Source of the DNA: Gammaproteobacteria bacterium
GTDB taxonomy: Bacteria > Pseudomonadota > Gammaproteobacteria > SZUA-229
Reading direction: 5' to 3'
DNA: 64,000 nt
Assembly: GCA_029882215.1 (NCBI GenBank)
Contig: JAOULC010000012.1
Coordinates: 1 to 64,000 of the forward strand
Below the pieces are notes generated by a model. It had not been told where the DNA came from, ran no database searches, and saw only the letters and a program-made list of their open reading frames with translations. Numbering within the stretch: position 1 is the first letter of the stretch; the number at the start of each line of letters is the position of its first letter. Shown one piece after another: positions 22,766 to 39,667 of the stretch. A program made the translations under genes and the position numbers.

Positions 22766-25114
22766 ATGTTAGCCCTCGTTAAAAAAGAGAATAACATTCA
22801 AGCCGAGAATGGAGTGAATCAGGAAACAGTATTTAAACAAAGAGCGCTAATCATTGTATTGATTATCCTTTTTGTCTGTACAGGGCTTGGCCTGTTCGGT
22901 TTTTCTCTGGCGAACCATGTTATTGATATCGATAAACAATGGACTGAATATGATAAAGAAATAATGGTGTCTACCCAGTCACTGGCATTGCTAGAAAGTC
23001 ACCTTATCTATGATGGTGTCATAGCTGATTTCAAAAAATACATATCAGAAAAAGACAAGAAATTTATCATTCGTATAGAAAATGATTTGCGTGAAATCTA
23101 TCAGGCAATTAATGATTATCCCTTGAACAAAGATCACCCCAGATTGATAGAGGCTCACAGTAGGATAAAAAATGCTGCAGATCGCTATGCTGAAAAATTT
23201 GAGCTTGCACAAAAACTGATTGCTGAAGACCAGCCTCTGGTTTACTCAGAATTTCAGATGTCTGTTGAGGAACACTCAGCTATAGAGTCATTTCGATTTC
23301 TCAAGTCACATATGTCGCATCATAGTCATGAGCAGCAGCTGAAAACAAATAAGGCAGTTGAAAGTACCCTGCAATTTCTTAGCTGGGGTACAGTTCTGTT
23401 TCCTGTCATTATTCTAGCAGGCGGAATTATCATTGTATTTATTCGCTATAACCTGCGTATAAATCAAAAGCTCGAAATAAACAGCCAATATAGAAATGAT
23501 ATTTTTAATGCAGCACCCGATGCGATGATCATTGTTGATGAAGGCGGTGCTATTAAGGAGGCTAATTCAAAAGCTGTTGAATTATTTGGATATAGTCAGA
23601 AACAGCTGTATGCGATGACAGTGGAAAGCCTTATGCCTGAACGTTTTCGAAGAGGGCATCCGAGTAAACTTAATAGTTCATTTAAAAAAACCGAGCAACG
23701 AGCATTAAATAACCAGGATGCATTTTGTGGATTGAGACAAGATGGTACAGAATTGCCTATTGAGATTAGTCTCAGTTATACAAAGAAAGGAAATAAGAAG
23801 CTGGCAATCACTATTATTCGTGATGTTTCTGAACGTAAAGAACTGGAAAAAATATTACAGCGTAGTGAAGATAGGCTGAAGAAAGCACAGCGCATTGCCA
23901 ATATGGGAAGCTGGGAGTGGAATATATCAGAGAATAAACTCACCTGGTCAGAAGAAATCTATAAAATATTTGGTGCTAATTTTAATGATTATGGTGTGGT
24001 ATACGATGATTTTGTTAATGCTGTACACCCGGATGACAGGGATGTCGTTATTGATGCAATGAACGAGGCAGTGTTATACGACAGGCCTTATAACATTGAA
24101 CACAGAATTGTCAGGCCGGATGGTGAAGAGCGTTTTGTGCATGAGAGAGGAGACGTTTTCAGGGGCGAAGAAGGGGAGGCGCAATCTATGGTTGGTACGG
24201 TGCTCGATATTACGGAGCAAAAAAAGGCAGAAAGAGAACTCAGGCTTGCCGATAATGTATTCGATCATGCAGCGGAAGCAATTGTCATAACAGATACAAA
24301 CAGCCGGGTGCTGAGAGTGAATTCCTCATTTACCAGACTGACGGGATATAGTGCAGAAGAAGCTATGGGTGAACAAATTCATCAGCTGATTAAATCAGAG
24401 AAGCATGAAAAATCATTTTTTCAGGAAATGTGGAAAGAAATCGATGACCATGGATGCTGGGAGGGGGAAATCTGGGATAAGCGTAAAGACGGCACCTTGT
24501 TTCTGAGTTCACAAAATATCAGCGAAGTAAAAGATGACAAAGGTGTCGTGATTCAATATACCAGTATTTTTAGTGATATTACTGATAAAAAGATTGCAGA
24601 AGAGCGCATTAAACACCTGGCAGAGTTTGATCAGTTAACAGGATTACCAAACCGGGAACTGTTTAAAGACCGGCTTGATCAGGCGGTACACAGAACAAAA
24701 CGTAACAAAAAAGAGATTGCTTTATTGTTTATTGACCTCGATGCATTTAAGTCTGTGAATGATACATATGGTCATCAGACAGGAGATGAGCTGTTACAGG
24801 AAGTGGCACAAAGGCTTCTGGCATGTGTGCGTGAGCAAGATACGGTGGCACGTCTGGGTGGTGATGAATTTATGATAATACTTGAGAGCCTGGTTGATAA
24901 AGAAGATGCCGCTCTGGTAGCAGAAAAAGTGATTAAGTCTCTGTCTAATAAAATACAGCTTGGTAAACACGAGGCCAGTATTGGTGCCAGTATCGGCATT
25001 AGTGTTTATCCGGATGACGGAGTGGATCAAGAAGCCCTGATTAAATATGCCGATATGGCCATGTATCAGGCTAAGAGTAAGGGTAAAAATCAGTATCAGT
25101 ATTATTCGCTTTAA
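22766..25114 (+). CDS. Membrane diguanylate cyclase with three PAS domains
   Basis: A 782-residue sensor cyclase. Two transmembrane helices (about 29-50 and 208-228) bracket an extracytoplasmic helical region. Three PAS domains follow (about 240-355, 370-480, 490-605), then a GGDEF domain ending the protein. The active site is intact (RLGGDEF, residues 698-702), and RxxD (REQD) five residues upstream forms an inhibitory I-site. No EAL domain is present. It should make c-di-GMP from GTP. It is monocistronic and converges on the sigma-54 regulator gene. With the EAL protein and a PilZ protein it indicates active c-di-GMP signalling. Confidence 0.93.
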   Translation: MLALVKKENNIQAENGVNQETVFKQRALIIVLIILFVCTGLGLFGFSLANHVIDIDKQWTEYDKEIMVSTQSLALLESHLIYDGVIADFKKYISEKDKKFIIRIENDLREIYQAINDYPLNKDHPRLIEAHSRIKNAADRYAEKFELAQKLIAEDQPLVYSEFQMSVEEHSAIESFRFLKSHMSHHSHEQQLKTNKAVESTLQFLSWGTVLFPVIILAGGIIIVFIRYNLRINQKLEINSQYRNDIFNAAPDAMIIVDEGGAIKEANSKAVELFGYSQKQLYAMTVESLMPERFRRGHPSKLNSSFKKTEQRALNNQDAFCGLRQDGTELPIEISLSYTKKGNKKLAITIIRDVSERKELEKILQRSEDRLKKAQRIANMGSWEWNISENKLTWSEEIYKIFGANFNDYGVVYDDFVNAVHPDDRDVVIDAMNEAVLYDRPYNIEHRIVRPDGEERFVHERGDVFRGEEGEAQSMVGTVLDITEQKKAERELRLADNVFDHAAEAIVITDTNSRVLRVNSSFTRLTGYSAEEAMGEQIHQLIKSEKHEKSFFQEMWKEIDDHGCWEGEIWDKRKDGTLFLSSQNISEVKDDKGVVIQYTSIFSDITDKKIAEERIKHLAEFDQLTGLPNRELFKDRLDQAVHRTKRNKKEIALLFIDLDAFKSVNDTYGHQTGDELLQEVAQRLLACVREQDTVARLGGDEFMIILESLVDKEDAALVAEKVIKSLSNKIQLGKHEASIGASIGISVYPDDGVDQEALIKYADMAMYQAKSKGKNQYQYYSL

Positions 25115-25244: not shown

Positions 25245-26597
25245 TTATGTTGAATGGATGTTAAATTTTTGCATACGCCGCCATAAGGTAGTACGGTCGA
25301 TGCCAAGCGTCTGCGCAGTTTTTGATTTATTTCCGTCACATTGCTGCAATACGGCTTCTATCGTTTGTTTTAATTTTTCTTCCTCGATACTATCGTCATC
25401 TGGAGTGCAGTTGCTGTGAATATCAGCCTGATTATATTCACGTATATCCTGAGGTAAGCTGGCGGAATTTACCTTGTTTCCTTGAGCACAAATAATGCCG
25501 TGTTCAACGGCATTTTCAAGCTCTCTTACATTACCCGGCCAGGGATAATCCATCATTAGACGCATTGCATCATGGCTGCATTCAAGGTTTTCGGTATCGT
25601 AGCCACGCAGGGCTAAACGCTGACAAAAGTGATTAATTAATACGGGTATATCACCGGGCCGGTGCTTTAGTGATGGAATGGTTAGCGGAATCACAGCAAG
25701 CCGGTAAAATAAATCGGAGCGGAATTCATCGTTGTTTACCATGTCTTTTAAATTTCTATTTGATGCAGAAATAATCCGGACATCCACTTTAATCGTTTCA
25801 TTAGAACCGACCATTTCAAATTCCTTATCTTGTACAGCTCTTAATAATTTCGCCTGCAAGTGCAGTGGCATTTCGGTGATTTCATCAAGAAACAGAGTAC
25901 CACTGTTTGCAGCCTGAAACCGTCCAATACGGTCTTGACTGGCCCCGGTAAAAGCGCCTTTAACGTGGCCAAATAATTCTGATTCAATTAGTGACTCAGG
26001 GATCGCAGCACAATTTACTTCTATAAACGGCATTTCAGAGCGATGACTGGACCGGTGGATGATTCTGGCTAACTGGGTTTTGCCGGTTCCGGATTCACCT
26101 TGTAGCAATATTGAGGCGTTTGTTGGACCGATTTGATTTATACGATTGAGAATTTCAAGCATCCGCGGATCATTGGTAGACATATCCTGAAGAGAAGGAT
26201 CAAACACAGCTTCAAGTCTGCGCTGCTCAGTTTTATCTCTTATTAAAATTAAACGTAATTTTTCATTGTTGCTGGTGTTTATTAATCCGCAGTGAAACTG
26301 TAAGTAATGATTGTTGTTATCAATTTCAACTTTGTGTTCAAAGCGAACGAACTGGCCTGTTGGTCTGCCAGCGGCATCTATTTCACCGGCATCGATGGCT
26401 GCACGCAACATTGATTTTTGCAAATTAAAATCACCAACGTCTCTGAGTCGGGTGACTGTCTTATTCTCCATTCCAAATAATTTCATTACGGAAGGGTTGT
26501 GGTAAATAATGTTGCCAGCAGGATCTGCAATAATGACGCCTTCATCAATATATGAAACGATCGCTTCAAGCACTGGCGTTAGATTATTTTTTTTCAT
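25245..26597 (-). CDS. Sigma-54-dependent transcriptional activator (PAS-AAA-Fis)
   Basis: A 450-residue enhancer-binding protein. An N-terminal PAS domain (about 10-125) is followed by the AAA+ domain with Walker A GESGTGKT (167-174) and the sigma-54 contact loop GAFTGA (214-219). A Fis-type helix-turn-helix closes the protein (NKSKTAQTLGIDRTTLWRRM). It has no receiver domain, so the PAS domain probably senses a ligand or redox state. It diverges from the long operon starting at 27083, where a sigma-54 promoter and TGTTGC-type upstream repeats are visible, making that operon its probable target. Confidence 0.93.
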   Translation of the reverse strand: MKKNNLTPVLEAIVSYIDEGVIIADPAGNIIYHNPSVMKLFGMENKTVTRLRDVGDFNLQKSMLRAAIDAGEIDAAGRPTGQFVRFEHKVEIDNNNHYLQFHCGLINTSNNEKLRLILIRDKTEQRRLEAVFDPSLQDMSTNDPRMLEILNRINQIGPTNASILLQGESGTGKTQLARIIHRSSHRSEMPFIEVNCAAIPESLIESELFGHVKGAFTGASQDRIGRFQAANSGTLFLDEITEMPLHLQAKLLRAVQDKEFEMVGSNETIKVDVRIISASNRNLKDMVNNDEFRSDLFYRLAVIPLTIPSLKHRPGDIPVLINHFCQRLALRGYDTENLECSHDAMRLMMDYPWPGNVRELENAVEHGIICAQGNKVNSASLPQDIREYNQADIHSNCTPDDDSIEEEKLKQTIEAVLQQCDGNKSKTAQTLGIDRTTLWRRMQKFNIHST

Positions 26598-26627
26598 CGT
26601 TATGTTCCATTAACTCAATTCAGCAAG

Positions 26628-26665
26628 TGTTGCAATTTTTTAAATGTTGCGCAACACGTTGCGCC
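26628..26665. promoter_or_regulatory. Probable upstream activating sequence for the sigma-54 activator
   Basis: A perfect 12-bp palindrome TGTTGCGCAACA (26645-26656) is flanked by TGTTGCAA (26628-26635) and a partial copy CGTTGCG (26657-26663). Another copy, TGCAACA, lies at 26739-26745. The array sits 118-155 bases upstream of the -24/-12 promoter, the usual distance for enhancer sites of Fis-type activators. Confidence 0.75.
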
Positions 26666-26782
26666 TGATTTTTTATTGAAAGGTGATTCAAATCAATAAG
26701 ATAGTTCTCGATGTCATCACTTTATGTTTTATGAAACATGCAACACAAAAAAAATAAATCAACAAAATCAATGACTTATATT

Positions 26783-26799
26783 TTGGCATGCAATTTGCT
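26783..26799 (+). promoter_or_regulatory. Sigma-54 (-24/-12) promoter
   Basis: TTGGCATGCAATTTGCT matches the sigma-54 consensus TTGGCACG-N4-TTGCT at all but one specified base and keeps the obligatory GG-N10-GC spacing (GG 26785-26786, GC 26797-26798). It points to the operon that begins at 27083 and is divergent from a sigma-54 activator gene. Confidence 0.85.
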
Positions 26800-27082
26800 C
26801 CCTGGTTCAGTAAATAAATAAAAAAATTCGTAAAAAGTGGCTTAAATGTTTACGCGGAAATGGCTAAAAAATTTCAATAGGAACGGGATGCTGAGTCCGT
26901 AGTAGTTAATGAACTTGCTAGTATTAAATTTAATGCTGCAATTGCTTATGTCACAAGAAAACTAGAGTTTAATAAAGGTGAATACACTGCATTGATAAAA
27001 AATCCACGCAGAACCGGATCTTTGCTACAAGTTTGTCAGTAATGGTTCGGGTATAAATAAACAGGGTAGGAAAAATAATAAT

Positions 27083-28354
27083 ATGAACCAGGCAGTTAAA
27101 AAAATAGTATTTTGTTGTGTCTTTATTTTTGCCGTTCCATTTTCCTGGGCAGCTCAATATCCGTCTTCATCTTCCCGTTTTAGTAATTCATATAATCAGG
27201 TACCACAACAAAACAATTCAGCTCAAACGACGACATCATCATATCAGATGATGACAGCGCAACCTCACATTATTACCGTAGTCGACACTCAAACAGGTAC
27301 CAGCATTGTTCTGGGAGGTACGGTTGTTCCTCTGCGGGAAGTGACTTTGTCAGCACAGGTTTCAGGACGAATCGAATATCTTGCCGGCATTGAAGGTGAC
27401 TGGTTTCATGCTGGACAAGTCATCGCAGCAGTAGATGATGATGATTTGCAGGCAAAACGTCAGCAGGCACTTGCTAATATTAACAGTCAAATGTCTGCTG
27501 TGCAGAATGCTCAGGTGCAATATTCACGTGAGTTCTGGTCACCACAATCACGCAACATCGGCAAAATGCCGGGCATGGCATTACCTTCGATGTTCGATCA
27601 GTTCTTTACCCGGCCATTTGGTAGTGCGATGGGGTTGGGTAACCCGCTACTGGATCGTCAGGCTGATCTGTACTCACAAAATAGTCAGCTGGGCATGGCA
27701 CGCAGTCAGCATATTGGTGCTATTTCACAGTTACAGGGTATTGATGCCTTGCTAAGAGACACAAAGTCTATTGCTCCATTTAGCGGGGTCGTTGTAAAAA
27801 AACTGGTTGAAGTGGGTGATACCGTTCAGCCGGGACAAGCATTATTTAAGTTTGCCGATGCACAATATTTACAAATTCAGGTTGAGATTCCTTCACGACT
27901 TATGTCTGGCATACAACAGGACATGACTGTACCGGCGGTACTGGATGTCGGTAATACCCGTGTCATGGCACGGGTTTCGCAAATCTATCCGATGGCAGAT
28001 ACCAAACGCCATACCGTAACCGTTAAGTTTGATATTCCGGAAGGTGTTCCTGGCGGGCCGGGTATGTACGCAGAAGTGATGATTCCGGATGTGAATGCTC
28101 CGGTTAATGTACTGCCGTTGATTCCTAATACAGCAGTGGTATGGCGTGGAAGTTTGCCGGCTGTTTTTGTGCAGAATGCAAAAAATGAATCTGAACTGCG
28201 TTTATTACGACTGGGTGAAACAGTCGACAATATGAATATTTCAGTACTATCAGGTTTGCGCAGTGGCGAAAGAATTTATGCACAACCAACACCGGGAATG
28301 GCATCGGGGTGGAAGTCAGGCGTAACACTGAATATGCAAGAAAAAAACCAATAA
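27083..28354 (+). CDS. RND efflux periplasmic adaptor (membrane fusion protein)
   Basis: A 423-residue HlyD/AcrA-type adaptor with a signal peptide (ending near FSWAAQ) and a short Ser/Gln-rich linker. A split lipoyl/barrel-sandwich domain is visible (TLSAQVSGRIEYL and IAPFSGVVVKKLVEVGD), with a helical hairpin between that contains an unusual Met/Phe-rich stretch around FDQFFTRPFGSAMG, then beta-barrel and membrane-proximal domains. It bridges the inner-membrane pump encoded 39 bases downstream to an outer-membrane channel. No TolC-like gene is in the window. It is the first gene after the sigma-54 promoter. Confidence 0.92.
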   Translation: MNQAVKKIVFCCVFIFAVPFSWAAQYPSSSSRFSNSYNQVPQQNNSAQTTTSSYQMMTAQPHIITVVDTQTGTSIVLGGTVVPLREVTLSAQVSGRIEYLAGIEGDWFHAGQVIAAVDDDDLQAKRQQALANINSQMSAVQNAQVQYSREFWSPQSRNIGKMPGMALPSMFDQFFTRPFGSAMGLGNPLLDRQADLYSQNSQLGMARSQHIGAISQLQGIDALLRDTKSIAPFSGVVVKKLVEVGDTVQPGQALFKFADAQYLQIQVEIPSRLMSGIQQDMTVPAVLDVGNTRVMARVSQIYPMADTKRHTVTVKFDIPEGVPGGPGMYAEVMIPDVNAPVNVLPLIPNTAVVWRGSLPAVFVQNAKNESELRLLRLGETVDNMNISVLSGLRSGERIYAQPTPGMASGWKSGVTLNMQEKNQ

Positions 28355-28393
28355 GTATTAACAATACGTGTTAATTGGGAAAATAAAATAAGC

Positions 28394-31300
28394 ATGAATG
28401 AACAGAATAATAAAAAAGATTCTGATGAATTACTAAATCCGGAACTGGGTATTGCTGGTCGTATTACCAGGCAGTTTATTAATTCACCTGTTACTCCGCT
28501 GTTAATGGTTGCATTTCTGGCTATTGGTATATTAGGCCTGGTATTTACTCCACGTCAGGAAGATCCAAAAATTTCAGTACCGATGGTAGATGTATTTGTA
28601 CAGTACACAGGTGCAGCTTCAAAACAGGTAGCCAGTCTGGTGACTGAGCCTCTGGGCCGGATCATGAGTGAAATTCCCGGCGTAAGACATGTTTATTCAT
28701 CTACACAGCGTGGCGGTGCAGTGGTGACTGTGCGATTCGAAGTGGGTGAAGACATGGGTGAATCGATTGTTAAAGTTCATGACAAAATTCAGTCCAATAT
28801 TGATTTAATGCCGCCTGGTGTTTCAATGCCACTGGTTAAACCTGTGAGTATTGATGACGTACCGACTGTTACTGTTACGCTCTGGTCGCATGATGTTGAT
28901 GACGGCAATTTACGTACACTGGCATTTGATGTTTTACAGCGACTTGGAGAGGTGCCAAATACCGGTAAAGGTTTTGTTGTTGGCGGGCGCTCCGAGCAAA
29001 TCCGAATAGAAGTCATGCCGGAACGTTTAACCGGTTATGACATCACTCTCACTCAAATTGCACAAACCATCCGTACCGCCAATGCTGAAGTATCTGCAGG
29101 AAATATTGAGGGTGCTGATCATACTTACACGGTTTACAGCGGTTCGTTTCTGACCAATGCGCAGGAGATTTCACGGCTTGTTGTCGGTGTCAGAAACGGT
29201 GTGCCGGTTTATCTGCGTGATGTGGCTTATGTCTATGACGGTCCGGAAGAAACTAAACGTTATGTCACTTTTGACAGTGGTATATCATATCCTGATAAAC
29301 AGGTTTCGGCGAATAATGAAGCGGCTGTTACCATTGCCATTGCGAAAAAAATTGGCTCTAACGGTGTCACTGTTTCCAAAGCTATTTTAAAACGGCTTGA
29401 TGATTTAAAAGGTAATTTGATTCCTGATAACGTTAATGTTGATATCACACGGGATTATGGAAAAAGTGCTGACTCAAAAGTTAACGAATTATTAATGGCG
29501 TTATTTGAAGCGGCTGTTGCCGTCAGTATTCTTTGTCTGATTGGACTGGGTTTACGTGCAGCATCTGTTGTTATCATTATTATACCAATTGTCGTATTAA
29601 TTACGATTTGGTCAGCCTGGATTATCGATTATACAATTGACCGTGTGAGTTTATTTGCGCTGGTTTTTTCAATCGGTATTCTGGTTGACGATGCGACTGT
29701 CGTGGTCGAGAATATTTTCAGGCGCTGGCTGGAAGCCGGTAAAACGTCAATGAATATCGCAATTGATGCGGTACGAGAAGTGGGTAACCCGACAATACTG
29801 GCAACACTGACTATCATTGCCGCAATGCTGCCGATGGGTTTTGTCAGTGGGTTGATGGGCCCCTATATGAGACCGATTCCGGTGCTGGGTGCATCGGCAA
29901 TGTTCTTCTCACTAATCGCAGCCTTTGTCTTTGCACCATGGCTTGCAATGCGTGTCAGGCCGCAGTTATCGGCACTTCGAAAAGCAGAATTGCGAGAAGA
30001 AAAGATACGTAAGAAGATCGGTAAATTTTATCGTCCTTGTATGATGCCACTTTGTAATGTCAGGCGATATGGGTTGTTGCTACTTTATGGATTAATCGTG
30101 GCAACATTACTTGCCTGTACACTTTTCTACTTCAATATTGTGGCAGTAAAGATGCTGCCATTTGATAACAAGCCTGAATTTAATGTTGTTATTAATATGC
30201 CTGAAGGTACAGCTTTACCGGTTACCGCCAATGTAACCAGCAGACTGGTCAGCGAACTGAAAAAAATTCCGGAAGTGACATCGCTTCAGTCTTATACCGG
30301 TACGGCTTCGCCGTTTAATTTTAACGGAATGGTAAGACACTATTTTTTACGAAAGCAGGCATGGAATTCAGATATTCAGGTAATGTTACTTGATAAAGCT
30401 GAACGTGAAAGAAGTAGTCATCAAATCGCTGAAGATACACGTCATCTTTTAACACCTATTGCGAAAGAACTGGGCGCAAAAATTCAGATTGTTGAAATGC
30501 CGCCGGGACCTCCTGTACTGCAAACTGTTGTGGCAGAAATATATGGACCGACTGAAAATGTACGCCGCCAGTTAGCTGCTGATATGACATCAATGTTTGA
30601 AGAGGCGGCGGGGGTAGTTGATGTCGACAATTATTTAAGTGAGTCATATGAGTACTGGGTCTTTATTGTTAATACAGAAAAAGCAGTTCGTCTCGGTGTT
30701 TCTGTAGATCTCATAAACAGTAATCTTGCAATGGCAATGGGTGGCTTCAGGCTGGGTGATATTAAACGGAAAGTTGTTCATGAGCCTACCTATATCGTGC
30801 TGCAACTGCCTCTGGCAATTCGTTCGCAGATACAACGTCTAAAAAATCTTCCGGTCATGAGCTCAAACGGTACTTCTATCCCGTTAACGGAGCTCGGTCG
30901 TTTTGAAAAACAACTTGAAGATCCGGTTATCTATCATATAGATTTGCGGCCGGTTGAATATGTAACCGGTGAAATGGAAGGCAGGCTGGGTGCGCCTATT
31001 TACGGTATGTATGCGGTTGAGGACATGCTGAAAAACTACATTGCACCGGATGGTGTGAAAGTGACAGGTATGCCATGGGGACTGATCGGACCACCTGAAA
31101 GTGATAAGCAATCCGGTTTTGAATGGACCGGCGAATGGACAGTAACCTACGAAACATTTCGTGACATGGGCGCGGCATTTATGGTGGCGCTGGTTCTTAT
31201 TTATGGGCTGATAGTTTGGGAGTTTAAGAACTTTTCCATTGCCGGCATCATCATGGCACCGATTCCATTAACATTGATAGGTATTATTCCCGGGCACTGG

Positions 31301-32203
31301 ATATTGGGTGCTGAATTTACAGCCACATCAATGATCGGTTTTATTGCACTCGCAGGAATCATTGTTCGAAATTCAATTCTACTGGTTGAATTTGTTAAAC
31401 ATGAAGTGAATGATGGAAAAGAACTGCAAGAGGCGGTGATGGCTGCGGGTCAGGTAAGAATGCGGCCAATTTTTATAACGGCATTAACCTTAATGGCTGG
31501 TTCGGCAGCCATCATCAGTGATCCTATTTTCCAGGGTATGGCTGCCAGTCTTCTGTTTGGAACCGGTATTGCTACCGTGCTAACTCTGATTGTTATTCCG
31601 CTGGGCTGTATCAGTGTTGGTAAACAGTTCTATGTCATAAATGATCAGCCATTTAAGGACAAAATACCACCTCAGATTGTAGACGATCATAAACAGAAAA
31701 CAGGATCTGTTTGGCTGAGTGTCCGGATTAAACTAACCAGGATTGTCAAAAAGACATTTTATATTATAAGAGTGGCTTATACCATTGCTCAGAAGGCATT
31801 TCAAAGTCTGATAAAGCGGTTAAAAAATAAAAATACTATCACTTCAGATAATGAAAGGCAGAGTGTTGCTGAAGTCGTTGTTGAAGACAAACCGGAGCCA
31901 ACAGCTGCCAAAAATAAGAATTCCAAAGCAAAGAATAAAACGACTACAGAACATAGTACTGATAAAAAAACTACTGAAGAAAAAGATAGTGTTAAAAAGT
32001 CAGTCACTAAATCTGTTACCACTAAGAAAGTGACAAAAAAGAAAGTAAGTAATAAAAACCAGCAAGATACCGGTCAAAGTTCTGACAATATAACAACAGA
32101 GTCTGGTGCTGTTAAGAAATCTGTGGCTAGGGCTAAACGCCGTGGTATTAAATTAAAAAATATTGATAAAACACAAGAGAGTCAAGATGAAGAAAACAAT
32201 TAA
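28394..32203 (+). CDS. RND-family transporter with long Lys-rich C-terminal tail
   Basis: A 1269-residue inner-membrane pump of the HAE1/AcrB-like RND superfamily. It has twelve predicted transmembrane helices, two large periplasmic loops and the proton-relay aspartate pair D432-D433 in GILVDDATVVVENI. Normal family members end near 1020-1060 residues. Here an additional cytoplasmic tail of about 190 residues follows the last helix; its final 130 residues are rich in Lys, Thr, Ser and Glu (KKSVTKSVTTKKVTKKK). The tail is of low complexity, could bind nucleic acid or an acidic partner, and its role is unknown. The next gene overlaps its 3' end by 17 bases. Confidence 0.92.
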   Translation: MNEQNNKKDSDELLNPELGIAGRITRQFINSPVTPLLMVAFLAIGILGLVFTPRQEDPKISVPMVDVFVQYTGAASKQVASLVTEPLGRIMSEIPGVRHVYSSTQRGGAVVTVRFEVGEDMGESIVKVHDKIQSNIDLMPPGVSMPLVKPVSIDDVPTVTVTLWSHDVDDGNLRTLAFDVLQRLGEVPNTGKGFVVGGRSEQIRIEVMPERLTGYDITLTQIAQTIRTANAEVSAGNIEGADHTYTVYSGSFLTNAQEISRLVVGVRNGVPVYLRDVAYVYDGPEETKRYVTFDSGISYPDKQVSANNEAAVTIAIAKKIGSNGVTVSKAILKRLDDLKGNLIPDNVNVDITRDYGKSADSKVNELLMALFEAAVAVSILCLIGLGLRAASVVIIIIPIVVLITIWSAWIIDYTIDRVSLFALVFSIGILVDDATVVVENIFRRWLEAGKTSMNIAIDAVREVGNPTILATLTIIAAMLPMGFVSGLMGPYMRPIPVLGASAMFFSLIAAFVFAPWLAMRVRPQLSALRKAELREEKIRKKIGKFYRPCMMPLCNVRRYGLLLLYGLIVATLLACTLFYFNIVAVKMLPFDNKPEFNVVINMPEGTALPVTANVTSRLVSELKKIPEVTSLQSYTGTASPFNFNGMVRHYFLRKQAWNSDIQVMLLDKAERERSSHQIAEDTRHLLTPIAKELGAKIQIVEMPPGPPVLQTVVAEIYGPTENVRRQLAADMTSMFEEAAGVVDVDNYLSESYEYWVFIVNTEKAVRLGVSVDLINSNLAMAMGGFRLGDIKRKVVHEPTYIVLQLPLAIRSQIQRLKNLPVMSSNGTSIPLTELGRFEKQLEDPVIYHIDLRPVEYVTGEMEGRLGAPIYGMYAVEDMLKNYIAPDGVKVTGMPWGLIGPPESDKQSGFEWTGEWTVTYETFRDMGAAFMVALVLIYGLIVWEFKNFSIAGIIMAPIPLTLIGIIPGHWILGAEFTATSMIGFIALAGIIVRNSILLVEFVKHEVNDGKELQEAVMAAGQVRMRPIFITALTLMAGSAAIISDPIFQGMAASLLFGTGIATVLTLIVIPLGCISVGKQFYVINDQPFKDKIPPQIVDDHKQKTGSVWLSVRIKLTRIVKKTFYIIRVAYTIAQKAFQSLIKRLKNKNTITSDNERQSVAEVVVEDKPEPTAAKNKNSKAKNKTTTEHSTDKKTTEEKDSVKKSVTKSVTTKKVTKKKVSNKNQQDTGQSSDNITTESGAVKKSVARAKRRGIKLKNIDKTQESQDEENN

Positions 32204-33083
32204 TCGTGGCTATATAAAGTTATTGATTCTATTTTCACTGAGTAGTTCATCACTGGTGCTTGCCAATGATGCTGAGTTAACAACCGAAAAGAAGACGGTA
32301 ATGTCGCCTGCACCTGCAGGACCGTATCGTTCTCAATCGGCAGATATGAATGAACTGAAAAAAATGAGTGCTGAGAAAGAGCAACTATTGATACAGCAAT
32401 CTGAGCAGCACAAAACAATGCGTGCAAAAAATAATAAATCGACACAATCTACAGCGCAACAGAATCAAATACACCCAATGCAAACTCCATTGTGGGAAAA
32501 CAGCGTAGCCGCTCAGCCACAGCAAGATCTGCGGCCATTACAACAACATGCTCCGGCGTGGGCAACCAATCCACCACCTCAGTGGGTAACCAATACACCT
32601 GCTCATCCGCGACAGTGGGTACAGCGTCCACCGCAAGCGATGCAGCAACACGTCCCCGAATGGGTTAACCATCATCCCGCAGCACCGCCGTGGACGAAGA
32701 GTATACCTGCCCATCCGCAACAGTGGGCACAGCGACCACCGCAACTGATGCATAAAGTACCAGAGTGGGTAAAGAATCCGCCAGTGCTGCCGCCGTGGTC
32801 GAACAATACCATGACTCATCCACAGTGGGCACAGCGACCACCGAACCCGATTCATCAAGTGCCAGCATGGGTAAATAGTCAGCCAGTGCCTCCACCGTCA
32901 GCAAATAATGCACCGGTGCAGCCACAATGGGGACAACGGCCACCGCAATCGCAGCAACAAGTGCCGGAGTGGGTTAATAATCAGGCTTATAGATTGAACC
33001 CGCCTCCCTGGTTTAATTATTCACATCCGACACCGGGTTTTCAGCAGCAGTTTAATGGCTACGGCAATCCGGAACAGAGATAA
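32187..33083 (+). CDS. Secreted Pro/Gln/Trp-rich repeat protein
   Basis: A 298-residue protein of unrecognised family. A signal peptide is likely (residues about 8-25, ending near LVLAND). After a charged helical region (about 35-80) the rest consists of degenerate 20-35 residue repeats around the core QWxQRPPQ...VPxWVN, rich in Pro, Gln, Trp and Asn. Such sequence suggests an extended or matrix-forming extracytoplasmic protein. I chose ATG 32187 rather than TTG 32163; it overlaps the pump gene by 17 bases, so translation is probably coupled. Confidence 0.75.
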   Translation: MKKTINRGYIKLLILFSLSSSSLVLANDAELTTEKKTVMSPAPAGPYRSQSADMNELKKMSAEKEQLLIQQSEQHKTMRAKNNKSTQSTAQQNQIHPMQTPLWENSVAAQPQQDLRPLQQHAPAWATNPPPQWVTNTPAHPRQWVQRPPQAMQQHVPEWVNHHPAAPPWTKSIPAHPQQWAQRPPQLMHKVPEWVKNPPVLPPWSNNTMTHPQWAQRPPNPIHQVPAWVNSQPVPPPSANNAPVQPQWGQRPPQSQQQVPEWVNNQAYRLNPPPWFNYSHPTPGFQQQFNGYGNPEQR

Positions 33084-33133
33084 AAAGTGGGCTTGATTAC
33101 GCATATTCCGGATATCAGTAAAGGGTTTCAAAA

Positions 33134-33730
33134 ATGAAATTAATTATTTTTATCATCAACACGAAACTTGATCTTATAGCTTTTCATATGATTGTTGCTG
33201 TTTCACTTTTTATAAATATCAATCTTGTAAAGGCAGATTCGTTATCCTATTCACCGGATCAGTGGCCAGGACACTGGAATGAAGCAATGGATGATAGAAA
33301 TTATCAGACAAGCATCAGTGACTATGACAGATGTAATAATAACTGTGAGCGTCAAAATAACTATTATTCAAAACAACGTCCTGCGAAAAGTCCTATATGG
33401 GGAATGGCGCCTGTTTCTAAAGACAAGCCACGTCGTACTGTGAGGCCTGAATATAATTCAAATTCACACATGATGAGATATGAAAAAATGAAGAATAACT
33501 ATTCTCCTTATTATTCAGCTCAGATGATTCCGGCTATGGGAGGGCTAGTTAATCCGTATGCAGGTTCCGTGTTAAACCCATATGCTGTTCCGGTTATGGT
33601 TCCAGGATTAGCAGCACCCGGGATTCCTTTTTCGGTGAATTCATACGGGATGAACCCGTATGCAAATTATTCATATGCACCAATGGTTCCCGGAATGGGT
33701 TATGCACCGGGAGTAAATTACCTATGGTAA
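33134..33730 (+). CDS. Secreted Tyr/Pro/Asn-rich protein, possible structural protein
   Basis: A 198-residue protein of unrecognised family. The hydrophobic N-terminus (about residues 15-35, ending near VKADS) looks like a signal peptide, though with a long n-region. The mature part has a CNNNC motif near residue 70 and a C-terminal half of Pro-Tyr-Ala-Gly-Met repeats (VNPYAGSVLNPYAVPV, MNPYANYSYAPM). The composition resembles structural coat proteins such as sulfur globule proteins. It lies between the Pro/Trp-rich gene and the sulfur-globule-like gene. Confidence 0.65.
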   Translation: MKLIIFIINTKLDLIAFHMIVAVSLFININLVKADSLSYSPDQWPGHWNEAMDDRNYQTSISDYDRCNNNCERQNNYYSKQRPAKSPIWGMAPVSKDKPRRTVRPEYNSNSHMMRYEKMKNNYSPYYSAQMIPAMGGLVNPYAGSVLNPYAVPVMVPGLAAPGIPFSVNSYGMNPYANYSYAPMVPGMGYAPGVNYLW

Positions 33731-33920
33731 TAAACAGTTAATTCTGTCAGTAAGAAGTTATCGTAGTCAAAAATTAAAAGATAAAAAATATTTTATTTAT
33801 AAATGTTTAGTAAACAGGAAAAACAAGAACTGAAAGTTAATAAGTCTTGTTGATCTGTACAGGATAATAAATGTAACACTCGCCATTTGTTATTCATTGA
33901 AATACCCAGAGTGATGGCGG

Positions 33921-33962
33921 CATGGAAAACCATGTCAATCTGTGACCTTCAATTGTGAAGGT
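33921..33962 (+). other. Leader hairpins ahead of the sulfur-globule-like gene
   Basis: Two small stem-loops precede the gene: CATGG-AAAA-CCATG (33921-33934) and ACCTTC-AATTGT-GAAGGT (33945-33962). The second ends just before the AAGGAG ribosome-binding site. They may stabilise the leader or tune translation of a highly expressed structural gene. The 245-base gap before this gene could also hold a separate promoter, but I cannot pick convincing -35/-10 boxes. Confidence 0.4.
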
Positions 33963-33975
33963 GAAGGAGAAAGAA

Positions 33976-34476
33976 ATGAAAAATGTTCGTAAAATTATAG
34001 GTATTGTGGCTTTGATCGGTTCAGCTGCCATTCCATTTTCAACAGCACAAGCCTGGTGGGGACCATTTAATGGCGGACCATTTAATAATGGTAATAGCTG
34101 GGGTAATAATAATGGCTGGGGTAATAATGGCAACGGCTATGGTAATGGCTATGGCAATGGCAACGGCGGTGGCTGGGGTAATGGCAACGGCTGGGGGGAT
34201 GGCAATATGTCATTTGGTATGAGCGGTGGCGGTCGTGGTAACAGTAATGTTAATGGTTATGGTAATGGTTACGGCAACGGTAGTGGTAATGGCTATGGTA
34301 ACGGTTACGGAAACGGCTACGGTAATGGCTACGGTAATGGCTACGGTAATGGTAATGGTTATAACCAGTACTATGGTGCTCCTGGTTATTATGCGCCACC
34401 ACCACCTCCTGGTTACTATGGCAATCCTTACGCTCAGCAGGCGCCAGTACAGGCACCTGCAGCACCCGCTAAGTAA
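33976..34476 (+). CDS. Sulfur-globule-protein-like Gly/Asn/Tyr-rich secreted protein
   Basis: A 166-residue protein with a signal peptide cleaved near STAQA-WWGPF. The mature protein is dominated by Gly, Asn and Tyr in (YGNG)n repeats and ends with a Pro/Ala-rich tail (APAAPAK). The WWGPxN start, a GDGNMSFGMSGGGRG block and the Gly-Asn-Tyr composition match the sulfur globule proteins of purple sulfur bacteria, which coat periplasmic sulfur globules. The assignment rests on composition and short motifs, so other Gly-rich envelope proteins are possible. ATG 33976 has AAGGAG upstream; the earlier GTG at 33955 is unlikely. Confidence 0.72.
   Translation: MKNVRKIIGIVALIGSAAIPFSTAQAWWGPFNGGPFNNGNSWGNNNGWGNNGNGYGNGYGNGNGGGWGNGNGWGDGNMSFGMSGGGRGNSNVNGYGNGYGNGSGNGYGNGYGNGYGNGYGNGYGNGNGYNQYYGAPGYYAPPPPPGYYGNPYAQQAPVQAPAAPAK
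34225..34365 (+). repeat. In-gene 12-base minisatellite encoding YGNG repeats
   Basis: Within the sulfur-globule-like gene, near-identical GGTAATGGCTAC units run in tandem with silent changes (GGTAAC, GGAAAC, GGTTAC). The unit keeps the reading frame, so copy number can change without frameshift. Confidence 0.8.
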
Positions 34477-34483
34477 GCGAAAG

Positions 34484-34527
34484 TTCGGGTTTGGTAAAAT
34501 ACATAAAATGTATTCACTAAACCCGAA
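34484..34527 (+). terminator. Strong stem-loop after the sulfur-globule-like gene
   Basis: TTCGGGTTTGGT (34484-34495) pairs with ACTAAACCCGAA (34516-34527), 12 bp with one G-U, and an inner ATACAT/ATGTAT stem extends the structure. There is no T-run after it. It may be a partial terminator or an RNA-stability element raising the level of the upstream message over the genes downstream. Confidence 0.55.
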
Positions 34528-34566
34528 GCTTCCTGTGTAGAGAATAATTTTATTGGAGAGTTTGTG

Positions 34567-35337
34567 ATGGCAGCTATTTTTAGGACAGTTTTGTTGCTCT
34601 TTGTTGGCTTTATTTCTATTTCTGTAAGAGCTTATGAAGCAAACGTGGAGTTTTCTGCTGAAGCAGTACAAAGCATGCCTGATCGTCCACCAATGATTGC
34701 TAAAATGTTTGTGAGTAAAAATGCTGTTCGTACAGAGTCAACTATGAATGGTATCACTATGGTTGAAATTGTTTACCCTAACGAAAATAGACGGGTTTTT
34801 TTGAATAAAATAAGAAAAACTTATTTTGAACAAAGCACACCAGTTAAGCAGCCTAAAAATAAACAGAGCAGCACTGGTTCCCCGTGTAATCAGCGGAATA
34901 ATTCAGTGTGTAAAAAACTGGCTACTGAAAAGATTAATGGACGAAGTGTAATAAAATGGGAAATGACAACAAATGTTAATGGCCGGAGTTTGAAGAGTTT
35001 ACACTGGCTGGATAAAAAATATCAAATGCCTCTGCGAGAGCAATTTAGCGATGGCACAATTTCTACTATGACTTTATTGGGTAAGGATGAGATTTATGGT
35101 CGGGTCGCTGAAAAATGGGAGCTGCTTGCTACTCGTCCCGATGGTGGTTTTATTAAATCACAGCAATGGTATGACCCTAATTTGAAAATAGTGATTCGTG
35201 AGGTGCTACGTGGAGATTATGTTCGTGAACTGCGGAATATTAAAATTGCAAGGCAAAGCAAGCAGTTATTCAAAATACCAGATGATTTTAAAAAAGAAAC
35301 GATAACTAATATGAATATACAGAGAAATAACCGGTGA
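34567..35337 (+). CDS. Periplasmic LolA/DUF4412-like protein
   Basis: A 256-residue protein with a signal peptide (ending near SVRAYEA). The mature part resembles the incomplete beta-barrel of outer-membrane lipoprotein-sorting proteins (MFVSKNAVRTEST, RVFLNKIRKTYFEQ, WEMTTNVNGRSLKSLHWLDKK). Two cysteines near residues 98 and 106 could form a disulfide. It may carry a hydrophobic ligand or assist surface delivery of the neighbouring structural proteins. ATG 34567 is better spaced from GGAG than GTG 34564. Its stop overlaps the ParA-like start (GTGA). Confidence 0.7.
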   Translation: MAAIFRTVLLLFVGFISISVRAYEANVEFSAEAVQSMPDRPPMIAKMFVSKNAVRTESTMNGITMVEIVYPNENRRVFLNKIRKTYFEQSTPVKQPKNKQSSTGSPCNQRNNSVCKKLATEKINGRSVIKWEMTTNVNGRSLKSLHWLDKKYQMPLREQFSDGTISTMTLLGKDEIYGRVAEKWELLATRPDGGFIKSQQWYDPNLKIVIREVLRGDYVRELRNIKIARQSKQLFKIPDDFKKETITNMNIQRNNR

Positions 35338-35969
35338 TTACTGTCATTGCTAATTTAAAAGGCGGCTCGGGTAAAAGTACTGTTACTTTTAATTTGGGAC
35401 TGTGGTTGCAGATGAAAGGACAGCCTGTCGTGGCATATGATCTTGATCCGCAACAAACGCTGTCTGATGTTGCTGAAGTAAGAAGAGAAGAAGGTTATGC
35501 ACCTCCGTTACAGGTAAATCAACCACGGGAAAGTTTACAGGATGATATGAAATATCATCCTGTACAAACGCAAGTTCTGGTTGATGTAGGAGCATCAAAT
35601 ATGCAGGCTATGAAAATAGCTCTTACTATTGCGGATAGAATTGTTATTCCAGTACCGCCTAGCCAGCCAGATGTCTGGGCGACACAACGATTTTTAAATA
35701 TCGTAAATAATCTGGAGATTAATAACAGGCCTGAAATGCGAGTATTTGTAAATAGGGCTGATACGCACCGGGCGGTAAGAGAGTCTGATGAAACTGAGGA
35801 TGTGTTACGTCAGCTACAAGGTGTTGAGTTAATCAATCAGCGGTTGCATCAACGAACTGTATACCGGCGCTCACTGAGTGAAGGACTGTCTATATTTGAG
35901 CTATCCAGACGCTCTAAAGCTGCTGATGAGTTTAATAGACTCGCAGCTATTTTGTACCCTGAACTGTAA
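35334..35969 (+). CDS. ParA/MinD-type ATPase
   Basis: A 211-residue cytosolic P-loop ATPase with the deviant Walker A motif KGGSGKST (signature lysine K9, catalytic K14) and a switch I-type DLDPQQT segment. It is short, like ParA-type proteins that position cellular cargo (McdA, ParC, MipZ-like), rather than plasmid ParA with a DNA-binding N-terminal domain. No parB or parS-like gene is adjacent. It starts with GTG overlapping the stop of the LolA-like gene by 4 bases. Three membrane proteins follow, one of them Gln-rich, which suggests it spaces a membrane-linked structure in the cell. Confidence 0.88.
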   Translation: MITVIANLKGGSGKSTVTFNLGLWLQMKGQPVVAYDLDPQQTLSDVAEVRREEGYAPPLQVNQPRESLQDDMKYHPVQTQVLVDVGASNMQAMKIALTIADRIVIPVPPSQPDVWATQRFLNIVNNLEINNRPEMRVFVNRADTHRAVRESDETEDVLRQLQGVELINQRLHQRTVYRRSLSEGLSIFELSRRSKAADEFNRLAAILYPEL

Positions 35970-36001
35970 GAAATTGAAGATAATTTAACTGGGATATGAA
36001 C

Positions 36002-36910
36002 ATGAAATTTTTTCGGCATATATTAAGTCATATTTTTTTGATATCAGTATTCTTGATAATAATTTCTGTTTTTTATTACCGCACTTTTTTGTTGCCACAA
36101 AATCTGGTTGATAGGATTGAAGTATATGTGAATGAGGTCTATCCACCTGTGCTGTTGTTCTCATCAAACAGAGATTATTTATGGAGTAGGAAAGATCGCT
36201 CACCAGTCACTTTTAATGACTTATTCGTCAAGGATGAGGTGGTCAGTGAAATTTCGGGTGAACAGATGCTTGAAAAAAATGTAACCATATCTGGTGCTGA
36301 TAAAAATAACCTTGAAAAGGGAGTTCCTAATGTAGACAGTGAAATAAATATTTTAGACAATGTCGAGGTTAAATTAAAAAAATCAGAGGATGCAGTTGTT
36401 ACTGCTGTAGTCACGCAGGAAACTCACAGCCAAGAAAAAGATAAAAAGCAGGTTATGGGTGATAATGTCCTGCGCGATGAATATATTCAGAGTGATGAAG
36501 GTTTTCCGGTTGGTAGTCGTACGGATGGCATGGTGCAAAAAAATGAGACCCAGGCAGATTCTGAGAAATCTTCCGGTAACGAAAATATAGTCGCTGTTAT
36601 ATCTGCTTATGAAGTTCTGCTGGCGGCGAGAAATTCATTTAATCATGGTGATATGGAAAATGCTGAGAAAAACTATATTCGATTAACAGAGCTTGATAAA
36701 AGTAACCCTGATGTTTACGGGGAGCTCGGCAATGTATATTACTCTCAGGGTAAATGGGAAAAGGCTGGTGAGTCTTATTATGAAGCAGCAGTTATTTTGA
36801 TTTCAAATGGAAATAAAAATCAGGTTACATATTTGCACCGTGTTATAGAAGGATTGAATGTTGAGTATGCAGATAAGCTTGCTCAGCTGATGGTGTCAAA
36901 AATAAATTGA
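36002..36910 (+). CDS. Membrane-anchored TPR-containing protein
   Basis: A 302-residue protein with one N-terminal transmembrane helix (about residues 7-27), a long acidic and variable linker and C-terminal tetratricopeptide-like repeats (about 205-270; AARNSFNHGDMENAEKNY and YGELGNVYYSQGKWEKAGESYYEAA). Topology is probably N-in with the repeats outside, but this is not certain. The repeats should bind a protein partner of the same operon. I prefer ATG 36002, 7 bases after GGGA, to ATG 35996. The specific family is not recognised. Confidence 0.75.
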   Translation: MKFFRHILSHIFLISVFLIIISVFYYRTFLLPQNLVDRIEVYVNEVYPPVLLFSSNRDYLWSRKDRSPVTFNDLFVKDEVVSEISGEQMLEKNVTISGADKNNLEKGVPNVDSEINILDNVEVKLKKSEDAVVTAVVTQETHSQEKDKKQVMGDNVLRDEYIQSDEGFPVGSRTDGMVQKNETQADSEKSSGNENIVAVISAYEVLLAARNSFNHGDMENAEKNYIRLTELDKSNPDVYGELGNVYYSQGKWEKAGESYYEAAVILISNGNKNQVTYLHRVIEGLNVEYADKLAQLMVSKIN

Positions 36911-36937
36911 TTCACTGAATCAATCTGAGGAAATAAA

Positions 36938-37453
36938 ATGAGTGACAATGAAATAAATCAGACTGACAAAAGCATAAAACACTCTGATGAAGCTTTTCAA
37001 GAAAATACAAAATATGATGAAAATAGAATAAACAGAATTGAAAGCATGGAAGAGTGCATGGGTAAAAGTCTGGATCAATTAGCCCAGGCGTTTATGGCCA
37101 GTGCGCGACGATGGGAAATGATTGTGTATCCTACAATGTTCGCCTTTATTCTTCTGGCGGGTTATGGTTTTTACCTGATCTATAGTCTGACGAATGACGT
37201 TTCGTTAGTTGTTCAGGATATGCATAAAATAACAGAAAACATGGAAAGAGTTGCAGTAAATATGGAGGCTGTTTCAAAAAATATGGTTGTAATGACACAG
37301 ACTGTTGATAGTCAGTCAACCAGTATGAAAGATATGGTTTATCACATGCGGGGAATGAATATGTCTATGAATCAGATGCGTTACGATATGTCTGTGTTGA
37401 ATAATAGTGTTAGTAGACCTATGAGTTTCATGAATGATTTCATGCCGTGGTAA
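36938..37453 (+). CDS. Single-pass membrane protein with Met-rich coiled coil
   Basis: A 171-residue protein of unrecognised family. A polar N-terminal region (1-55) precedes one transmembrane helix (about 65-87, YPTMFAFILLAGYGFYLIYSL) and a heptad-like helix rich in Met, Asn and Val (about 90-165). It probably oligomerises beyond the membrane through the coiled coil. A GAGG ribosome-binding site precedes the ATG. It follows the TPR gene by 27 bases, so it is in the same operon. Confidence 0.75.
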   Translation: MSDNEINQTDKSIKHSDEAFQENTKYDENRINRIESMEECMGKSLDQLAQAFMASARRWEMIVYPTMFAFILLAGYGFYLIYSLTNDVSLVVQDMHKITENMERVAVNMEAVSKNMVVMTQTVDSQSTSMKDMVYHMRGMNMSMNQMRYDMSVLNNSVSRPMSFMNDFMPW

Positions 37454-37492
37454 TACGGATGGTTATAAAATGATGTTGTAAGGGAGTTTGTT

Positions 37493-38314
37493 ATGAGTGA
37501 TGAATCAAAGGCGCCTGACGCTGATGAAAATATAAATGAAAATAAAAAAGCCAAACAGAAAAAAGTAACTGAGAAGCTGCAGGCAATGGGTATGATGTCA
37601 GGTGGACACAAGGAAGAATTAAAAAGTGATAACAACAAATTGTCATCAAAATTACCAAAACTATCTACAGTTATTATTGTTGTACTGATTATAGGCGGGG
37701 TTGGTTTATGGGTGGTAACTGATCGGGATAATGATCAGCTTGATTCTATATCAACTAATACTCAGTCTCATAATGCTGAAACGGGGCGTAAATTTTCATC
37801 TGAAGGGGATTATGCCTATCCGTATAGTTCCTATAACAGTCCGGCTGGTTTCAAGAAAAATAGTGATCGTGACGCAGAAAATAGCAAGCAACTGAGTCAC
37901 AGTAATAACCGGAACTATATGCAAGAGCAGTATACAAATCCTTATTATAGCGGCTACCCTCAGAATAGAAATAATACGTACCTGATAAATGAGATGAATC
38001 AAATGCCTGTGACATCACAACAGCAATACATGACGATGATACAACAGTGGCAGACAGAGCAAATACTGGCTCAGCAAAAACAGGAGAAGATGATGCAGGA
38101 GCAGTGGCTTCAGACTCAGAAAAAACGTGAGATGTTAATGCAGGAGCAGCAAAAACAAGCCCAGCATTACAGAGATCAGCAAAGACAGGCGCAAACACAG
38201 AAACAACCTTATTATGAAATGCCGCAATATTCTAATAACTGGACACAATATCCACCACCATCATATTACGTCCCTCAACAATATCCACAGCCATTGCAAT
38301 ACTATGGTCGTTAA
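37493..38314 (+). CDS. Single-pass membrane protein with Gln/Tyr/Pro-rich extracytoplasmic domain
   Basis: A 273-residue protein of unrecognised family. A charged N-terminal region (1-60, Lys and Glu rich) is followed by one transmembrane helix (about 62-80, STVIIVVLIIGGVGLWVV). The remainder is low complexity: Ser/Asn/Tyr-rich, then a Gln-rich helix (MQEQWLQTQKKREMLMQEQ) and a Tyr/Pro-rich tail. Gln-rich partners of ParA-type positioning ATPases (McdB) are known to phase separate; similarity here is compositional only. It could link the cytosolic ATPase to the secreted matrix proteins. Confidence 0.72.
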   Translation: MSDESKAPDADENINENKKAKQKKVTEKLQAMGMMSGGHKEELKSDNNKLSSKLPKLSTVIIVVLIIGGVGLWVVTDRDNDQLDSISTNTQSHNAETGRKFSSEGDYAYPYSSYNSPAGFKKNSDRDAENSKQLSHSNNRNYMQEQYTNPYYSGYPQNRNNTYLINEMNQMPVTSQQQYMTMIQQWQTEQILAQQKQEKMMQEQWLQTQKKREMLMQEQQKQAQHYRDQQRQAQTQKQPYYEMPQYSNNWTQYPPPSYYVPQQYPQPLQYYGR

Positions 38315-38348
38315 TGTTTTTCAAAACGTAATTTGTTAAGAGGGTTAT

Positions 38349-38936
38349 ATGACTATAATAAAAAACGGCCTTATTTTCCTTGGTATTCTGTTTATAATGA
38401 TTCTGTTATGGATTGTATGCGTTATAGAGCCTTCATATCATCGATTTAGTGATTTCGATGAAGCAGCAACTGAGACGTACTTTTCGTTGTTTAAAAATAT
38501 TATGGCTACTGGTAATGCCGCTGAAGCATCTGTCTGGAAACTACCGGTTGCCGAAGGTCTAAAAGCAGGTGAAGTTGAAGAGGTAATGGAGTTCGTTGCT
38601 AACGAACATAATATCAAAAATGTAGGAGTGCTGCCGCTTAGTACACAGATCGAAGCAATGACGGGAAAACCTTTTCGTTATATGAAAATATTTATGTTTT
38701 GTAATGCCTTAACAGCCGCTAAAATGGTGACCTTTAGTGATGCATATTCAGCCTATTTACCGTGCAGGGTTACATTAATCGAAGATAAGACGGGAAAGTT
38801 GTGGCTCTATTCACTTAATATGGATTTGATGATTTTTGGCGGAGAGGCTTTACCTGAGGAATTAAAAACGGAAGCTTTACAAGTAAAAGAAACAATCCTT
38901 GATATAATGAAACGCGGTGCCAGTGGTGAATTTTAA
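38349..38936 (+). CDS. DUF302-domain protein, membrane anchored
   Basis: A 195-residue protein with one N-terminal transmembrane helix (about 7-27) and a DUF302-type domain (about 80-190) including LPLSTQIEAMTGKPFRYMKIF, FCNALTAAKMV, AYLPCRVTLIEDK and WLYSLNMDLMIFGG. Two cysteines (in FCN and PCR) are conserved-looking. DUF302 proteins have no proven reaction and are often found in sulfur-oxidising proteobacteria. It is separated from the preceding gene by 34 bases and follows a standard ribosome-binding site. Confidence 0.82.
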   Translation: MTIIKNGLIFLGILFIMILLWIVCVIEPSYHRFSDFDEAATETYFSLFKNIMATGNAAEASVWKLPVAEGLKAGEVEEVMEFVANEHNIKNVGVLPLSTQIEAMTGKPFRYMKIFMFCNALTAAKMVTFSDAYSAYLPCRVTLIEDKTGKLWLYSLNMDLMIFGGEALPEELKTEALQVKETILDIMKRGASGEF

Positions 38937-38950
38937 ATAAGGTGAATGTT

Positions 38951-39667
38951 ATGTCTGCTGAAAATGATAAAAATTTAATGACAATCGCACAAATAAAAAA
39001 GCGTTTGAAATCTGTTAAAACAGAAAATACAGAAATTAAGGGCTTTCTGCTTGAAGCGGTTAATAAATTTCAGTGTCTTGATGATGTTGCAAAGGCGATT
39101 GGTATAGTGAATAAGGATTTTTCATTTTCAAATAATGTTACCTGGGATTCTGTCATATCAAAACTAGAATCTGTAAGCGATGTTGAAAATAAAGCAGATG
39201 TAATAAGCATCGATCATATACTCGAAACACTTGATGATTCTTCAAAACAAGTTAATGAAATTGCAATTCCTAAACTGCAACAATGGCGAAATAAGTGGAT
39301 GTATCAGGTGGTTTTACTTGAAGTCATTTTTTTTATATTGCTAAGCTCGACTGTTGCAGGCATAGCATATACTCAGGGTTTATGGTCAGCTGAAAATTTC
39401 TCATTTCCATTCCAGTATTTTTTTTATGAAAGACCGGTTTTTATAGCACTGGTCGGTTCACTGTCTTTTCTGAGTTTTTTAATACTACATTTCAATATCA
39501 GGCGTTATGTTGCATCTAAGCTTGCAATGAAACTGTCAGCTGAGTCATCTGAATTTGATTATTCTCGAGCATTTCTTAAAAATACCTATATGCTGCACAG
39601 TATCTTCAGGCCGGATATTGTTGGCTTAGGCTGGTTAAATAACAAATGTCGCTTTAAAAACATATAA
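38951..39667 (+). CDS. Two-TM membrane protein of unknown function
   Basis: A 238-residue protein not assignable to a family. The N-terminal 115 residues are soluble and helical. Two transmembrane helices follow (about 125-145 and 165-185) and a basic C-terminal region. ATG 38951 is correctly spaced after AGGTG; GTG 38942 is the alternative. It is the last gene of the long sigma-54-linked run. No clear intrinsic terminator is visible after it. Confidence 0.7.
   Translation: MSAENDKNLMTIAQIKKRLKSVKTENTEIKGFLLEAVNKFQCLDDVAKAIGIVNKDFSFSNNVTWDSVISKLESVSDVENKADVISIDHILETLDDSSKQVNEIAIPKLQQWRNKWMYQVVLLEVIFFILLSSTVAGIAYTQGLWSAENFSFPFQYFFYERPVFIALVGSLSFLSFLILHFNIRRYVASKLAMKLSAESSEFDYSRAFLKNTYMLHSIFRPDIVGLGWLNNKCRFKNI

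Follow-up and report, generated by a model that had tools for sequence, protein, structure and literature searches.

The window, the whole 64-kb stretch of gammaproteobacterial DNA that was analysed, holds an operon of twelve co-directional, tightly packed genes downstream of a divergent activator gene. The genes and control elements are as follows.

25245-26597, minus strand: divergent activator with PAS, sigma-54-interaction AAA+ and Fis HTH domains (Pfam Sigma54_activat 235.7 bits, HTH_8, PAS_8).
26628-26656, no strand: TGTTGC half-site at 26628 and palindrome TGTTGCGCAACA at 26645-26656, likely enhancer sites; half-sites are kept in orthologous operons.
26784-26799, plus strand: sigma-54 -24/-12 promoter TGGCATGCAATTTGCT, a perfect consensus match.
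26857-27053, plus strand: decayed gene for a small SCP2-fold protein, disrupted by a stop, an internal deletion and a frameshift at the 3' end, located by tblastn with the intact gene of relatives.
27083-28354, plus strand: RND periplasmic adaptor (TIGR01730 154.7 bits, cut-off 94.9).
28394-32203, plus strand: RND pump of the HAE-1 type with a long charged C-terminal tail (ACR_tran 464 bits).
32187-33083, plus strand: secreted Pro/Gln/Trp-rich repeat protein with a GPYRS motif; the motif and the position directly 3' of the pump are conserved.
33134-33730, plus strand: secreted protein with a YSxDQWPxxW motif, found in relatives by tblastn in conserved order.
33979-34476, plus strand: secreted Gly/Asn/Tyr/Trp protein assigned to the sulfur globule protein family (PF17228, E 0.015 in the window).
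34564-35337, plus strand: periplasmic LolA/RseB-fold protein (DUF4412-like), whose AlphaFold model matches the LolA superfamily.
35334-35969, plus strand: type Ib ParA ATPase (CbiA/AAA_31; ParF nearest in the PDB).
35996-36910, plus strand: N-anchored periplasmic TPR protein (TPR_11 33.9 bits).
36938-37453, plus strand: TMcc, a single-pass protein with a short cytoplasmic N-terminus (F-SAKRWE-IVYP), a TM helix and a Met-rich periplasmic coiled coil; candidate ParA adaptor.
37493-38314, plus strand: single-pass protein with a Gln/Tyr-rich periplasmic tail and a cytoplasmic KLxxMGVM motif; second candidate adaptor.
38349-38936, plus strand: membrane-anchored DUF302 protein (PF03625 44.8 bits).
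38942-39667, plus strand: dynamin-like protein that retains two TM helices but no GTPase domain and aligns with full-length relatives.

Intergenic gaps range from -17 to +87 bp, the sole exception being 248 bp 5' of the Gly-rich gene, and the reading frames and their order are those of a preliminary description of this DNA, which reported about twelve co-directional genes with short gaps. Pfam and NCBIfam likewise bear out its divergent Fis-type activator, RND adaptor and pump, TPR protein and DUF302 protein. The palindrome TGTTGCGCAACA occurs once in the window (0.02 expected), and the promoter, first described as near-consensus, is in fact the sole perfect match to TGGCAYRN4TTGCW in the 64 kb (0.20 expected). 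In relatives, an activator orthologue occupies the same place, and a sigma-54 site, counted by strict promoter matches, recurs together with TGTTGC/GCAACA half-sites ahead of orthologous operons in at least 10. Sigma-70 promoter-like sites within the operon are not commoner than in shuffles. One more exact copy of TGTTGCGCAACA exists in the genome, but within an adaptor coding gene, which ruled out a further operon controlled by this activator. Just 5' of the activator gene is a PAS-GGDEF diguanylate cyclase (window 22766-25114), which is not conserved with the cluster.

The gene set is conserved beyond close relatives, a point on which the preliminary description had staked its proposal. One public genome collection yielded ParA orthologues of 47-86% identity at 25 named loci, among them those of Thiomicrorhabdus sp. 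Milos-T2 and a Sulfurivirga MAG, and orthologues of 37-67% identity occur in 49 further genomes from a 274-genome gammaproteobacterial sample, in which 50 genomes carry the gene. Gene order is conserved in sulfur-oxidising Gammaproteobacteria of many families. Across 88 loci the neighbouring genes include TMcc (at least 54), TPR (at least 53), the pump and the LolA-like gene (at least 47 each), the adaptor (at least 44), the dynamin-like gene (at least 42), DUF302 (at least 32) and the SCP2-like gene (at least 19), these counts being lower bounds, with many contigs ending within the cluster. Unrelated flanking genes that recur across these loci are few, at 5 or 6 loci each, and pairwise distances of the cluster genes correlate (Spearman 0.30-0.83). 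With order and promoter both kept in relatives, the set forms one conserved, sigma-54-linked module, as had been proposed. None of the three congeners sampled (G001-G003) has the ParA orthologue, which makes the island patchily distributed even inside one genus. Another class of the phylum, probably Magnetococcia, has a shorter version of the cluster, and several of its carriers have two dsrA copies; two copies have reportedly been seen in a magnetotactic coccus.

The association with sulfur oxidisers suggested at the outset is borne out, the gene set being almost wholly confined to them. In the 274-genome sample, dsrA or soxB is present in 49 of the 50 ParA-positive genomes (44 with dsrA, 46 with soxB), the single exception being 55% complete, and in 76 of the 224 ParA-negative genomes, counts that are uncorrected for phylogeny. 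Outside Gammaproteobacteria, 35 of 37 ParA-positive genomes encode dsrA. Some carriers do without dsrA, including three in the window's own family, within which the presence of ParA does not track dsrA; a strict tie to Dsr is therefore ruled out, and the gene set is not bound to Dsr-type globule use. Neither ParA nor TMcc is present in 42 dsr-positive genomes.

Among the three secreted proteins, the Gly/Asn/Tyr protein had been described as sulfur-globule-like. The window copy scores 16.6 bits against PF17228, under the Pfam gathering cut-off of 26.7, which is passed by 10 of 21 orthologues (best 64.9 bits); none of seven composition-preserving shuffles matched. These profile matches place the orthologues of this gene in the sulfur globule protein family of Pfam. 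In Allochromatium vinosum, the gene of the globule-bound protein SgpD, which is up 28-fold on sulfide, adjoins a hydrophobic/amphiphilic exporter gene (PMC10386293), and by position the Pro/Gln/Trp-rich gene 3' of the pump can be likened to sgpD beside that exporter (PMC10386293).

The link of the gene set to globules is well supported by inference, and the module most likely serves sulfur-globule assembly. In its full form, the reading that the operon is an envelope-spanning module making and coating periplasmic sulfur globules, with ParA spacing added on through a membrane adaptor, is given about an even chance. The three secreted low-complexity proteins would form the coat, and an SCP2-fold carrier, the RND pump and the LolA-fold protein would move a hydrophobic substance, which may be lipid or sulfur/polysulfane, to the globule surface from the inner membrane, and the membrane round the globule would be shaped by the dynamin-like protein.

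The SCP2-like gene was overlooked in the preliminary description. Its remnant was found in the 310-bp leader stretch with tblastn E-values down to 3e-12, where relatives have, between promoter and adaptor, a gene some 130 codons long, intact in 19 loci. The protein of these relatives is predicted with high confidence (pLDDT 91.7), and the model has the SCP2 fold (2cx7, Z 16.5, rmsd 2.4 over 122 residues); no match to the Pfam SCP2 sequence model was obtained at E 0.1. The LolA-like call made at first proved correct at the level of fold: the predicted model matches LolA3 (Foldseek E 3.7e-7) and, in VIA comparisons, RseB and its relatives at Z 10-11 and LolA at about 9, and an orthologue scores 38.2 bits against DUF4412.

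These two carrier folds beside an RND pump are also what would be expected if hydrophobic matter such as elemental sulfur or lipid were exported to the outer membrane or the cell surface, with the secreted proteins forming a surface matrix and ParA setting only the place of the exporter. This agrees with the occurrence of the set in Sox-only genomes without Dsr and in Thiomicrorhabdus and Sulfurivirga, and with the smallest genomes (G133 and G249), which keep adaptor and pump only. However, while an ACR_tran pump and an RND_mfp adaptor are both present, no outer-membrane channel gene was found among the cluster genes of the window and the orthologous loci, and the sulfur globule family protein and the inner-membrane anchors indicate the periplasm, so that export to the surface is considered rather unlikely. 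Pump orthologues in sulfur oxidisers are 50-76% identical. In genomes of 1.4-1.6 Mb, adaptor and pump stand alone adjoining lipB/lipA (L183:7348-12022 and L184:7413-12012). The window's genome also has, on another contig (L182:4207-8420), a member of a second RND subfamily of adaptor and pump, with about 43% identity to the cluster pump; in several sulfur oxidisers (L182, L188 and L189) this subfamily is encoded at a distance of 7-17 kb from soxB.

The last gene of the operon was described at first as a two-TM protein, and the two helices stand; its dynamin-like ancestry had been missed. The product of 38942-39667 aligns at both ends with dynamin-like GTPases of 480-530 amino acids in relatives, which have the Dynamin_N GTPase domain that is absent here, and no full-length copy was found elsewhere in the window's genome. 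With the SCP2 gene and the GTPase domain lost, the window's copy of the operon is, to judge by comparison with relatives, partly eroded. One locus holds both a full dynamin-like GTPase (L045:12531-14081) and a short GTPase-less copy (L045:15827-16423), and the short form may thus have arisen as a paralogue and not by truncation in place. Together, the dynamin-like ancestry and the SCP2-like gene give more weight to the handling of membranes and lipids. A broader role in membrane remodelling, in which the dynamin-like protein and ParA would form invaginations or vesicles with sulfur globules as one content among several, draws on the full GTPase in 33 of the 42 loci with the gene, on its co-occurrence with ParA in 40 of 50 genomes and on EHD-like PDB matches. 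It is nevertheless improbable, given that the window's clade lacks the GTPase domain with the remainder intact and that in 24 genomes the GTPase is encoded but ParA is not. An ordinary operon for the efflux of drugs or toxic sulfur compounds, in which the other genes were unrelated passengers, would fit the multidrug RND pumps that are the closest solved structures to the pump, but gene order is kept across many families while flanking genes vary, which makes passenger genes unlikely and this explanation very improbable.

In the globule-assembly reading, spacing would fall to the ParA-type ATPase, an identification made in the preliminary description and upheld by Pfam and NCBIfam family matches and by a deviant Walker A motif, KGGxGK[ST], with signature lysine in 81 of 82 orthologues. 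In the window protein the motif occupies residues 9-16 of 211, and there is no N-terminal HTH. The NCBIfam ParA_partition equivalog was not reached (142.1 bits against a cut-off of 180 bits), which makes the protein a relative only. As no ParB-type protein was found among the cluster genes of the window or the orthologous loci, partition of DNA by a ParABS system was ruled out.

Two single-pass membrane proteins, one of them Gln/Tyr-rich, had been reported beside ParA, and both have conserved motifs. The TMcc alignment has 15 invariant columns, including a membrane-proximal stretch (RWE, YP) predicted to lie on the cytoplasmic side, and the periplasmic coiled coil ends in a conserved FMPW; PDB comparison of TMcc returned generic coiled coils only. 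In the Gln/Tyr-rich protein, the conserved KLxxMGVM motif is N-terminal to the TM helix. Either protein could, by its sequence features, act as a ParA adaptor. TMcc is the likeliest, because it is present in 47 of 50 ParA-positive genomes (Fisher p 1e-40, phylogeny ignored), and the ParA-TMcc pair remains adjacent where other cluster genes are scattered. In three genomes, a TMcc paralogue is encoded some 6 kb from dsrA (L173:10717-11271, L174:6716-7252 and near L172:11034-11390).

A nucleoid-bound ParA dimer would bind the cytoplasmic N-terminus of TMcc, or of the Gln/Tyr-rich protein, so that assembly sites would be spaced on the nucleoid and shared at division. Such positioning of globule sites is plausible from the gene content. 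The more specific proposal that nucleoid-bound ParA positions a periplasmic organelle through a membrane-spanning coiled coil, at sites built by the pump, lipid carriers, coat proteins and a dynamin-like GTPase, is tentative and has, in our estimate, appreciably less than an even chance. ParA would be an add-on, absent from some lineages: similar clusters lack it in a closed genome (G104) and in a further genome (G201), so positioning cannot be the core function, and the core consists of the pump, LolA-like, TPR and TMcc genes with ParA as an accessory.

To our knowledge, little is known of how sulfur globules are built, coated and shared out in bacteria beyond a few coat proteins, although these globules matter in the sulfur cycle, vent symbioses and bioreactors. 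The gene set is a real, conserved and apparently undescribed module of sulfur oxidisers; no description of the cluster was found in the literature searched, most subscription journals being outside its reach, which agrees with the preliminary description, where no known system of this composition could be named. By joining coat proteins, a pump, lipid carriers, ParA and, mostly, a dynamin-like GTPase, the set suggests a dedicated machine that builds and places envelope sulfur stores. A widely conserved, concrete gene set and a likely ParA adaptor are now named. If the proposal is true, this would be, as far as we know, the first dedicated machine for sulfur-globule biogenesis and the first ParA cargo beyond the inner membrane, giving an assembly pathway for a storage organelle and widening the range of ParA cargos to the periplasm.

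Among known systems, the cluster shares with McdAB carboxysome positioning and other ParA/MinD cargo systems a small type Ib ParA whose gene neighbours those of a candidate adaptor and the likely cargo (PMC10241942). The known protein cargos of those systems are cytoplasmic or on the cytoplasmic side of the membrane (PMC10241942), whereas here the presumed cargo is periplasmic and the adaptor would span the membrane. With SgpA-D of A. vinosum it shares secreted, repetitive, Gly- or Pro-rich coat proteins (PMC10386293); sgpD differs in that it is reportedly its own transcription unit, with ParA unmentioned in that report, and SgpD is said to be almost confined to Chromatiaceae, with no large operon described there (PMC10386293). 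Tripartite RND efflux systems of the TriABC/MexAB type share the adaptor and HAE-1 pump, but the cluster has no outer-membrane channel gene, its pump has a long charged C-terminal tail and it is linked to carriers of the SCP2 and LolA folds. Bacterial dynamin-like proteins (IniA, BDLP) and EHD proteins have in common with the cluster Dynamin_N, in the relatives, and two C-terminal TM helices; unlike them, the window copy is without the GTPase domain, and its gene context is new.
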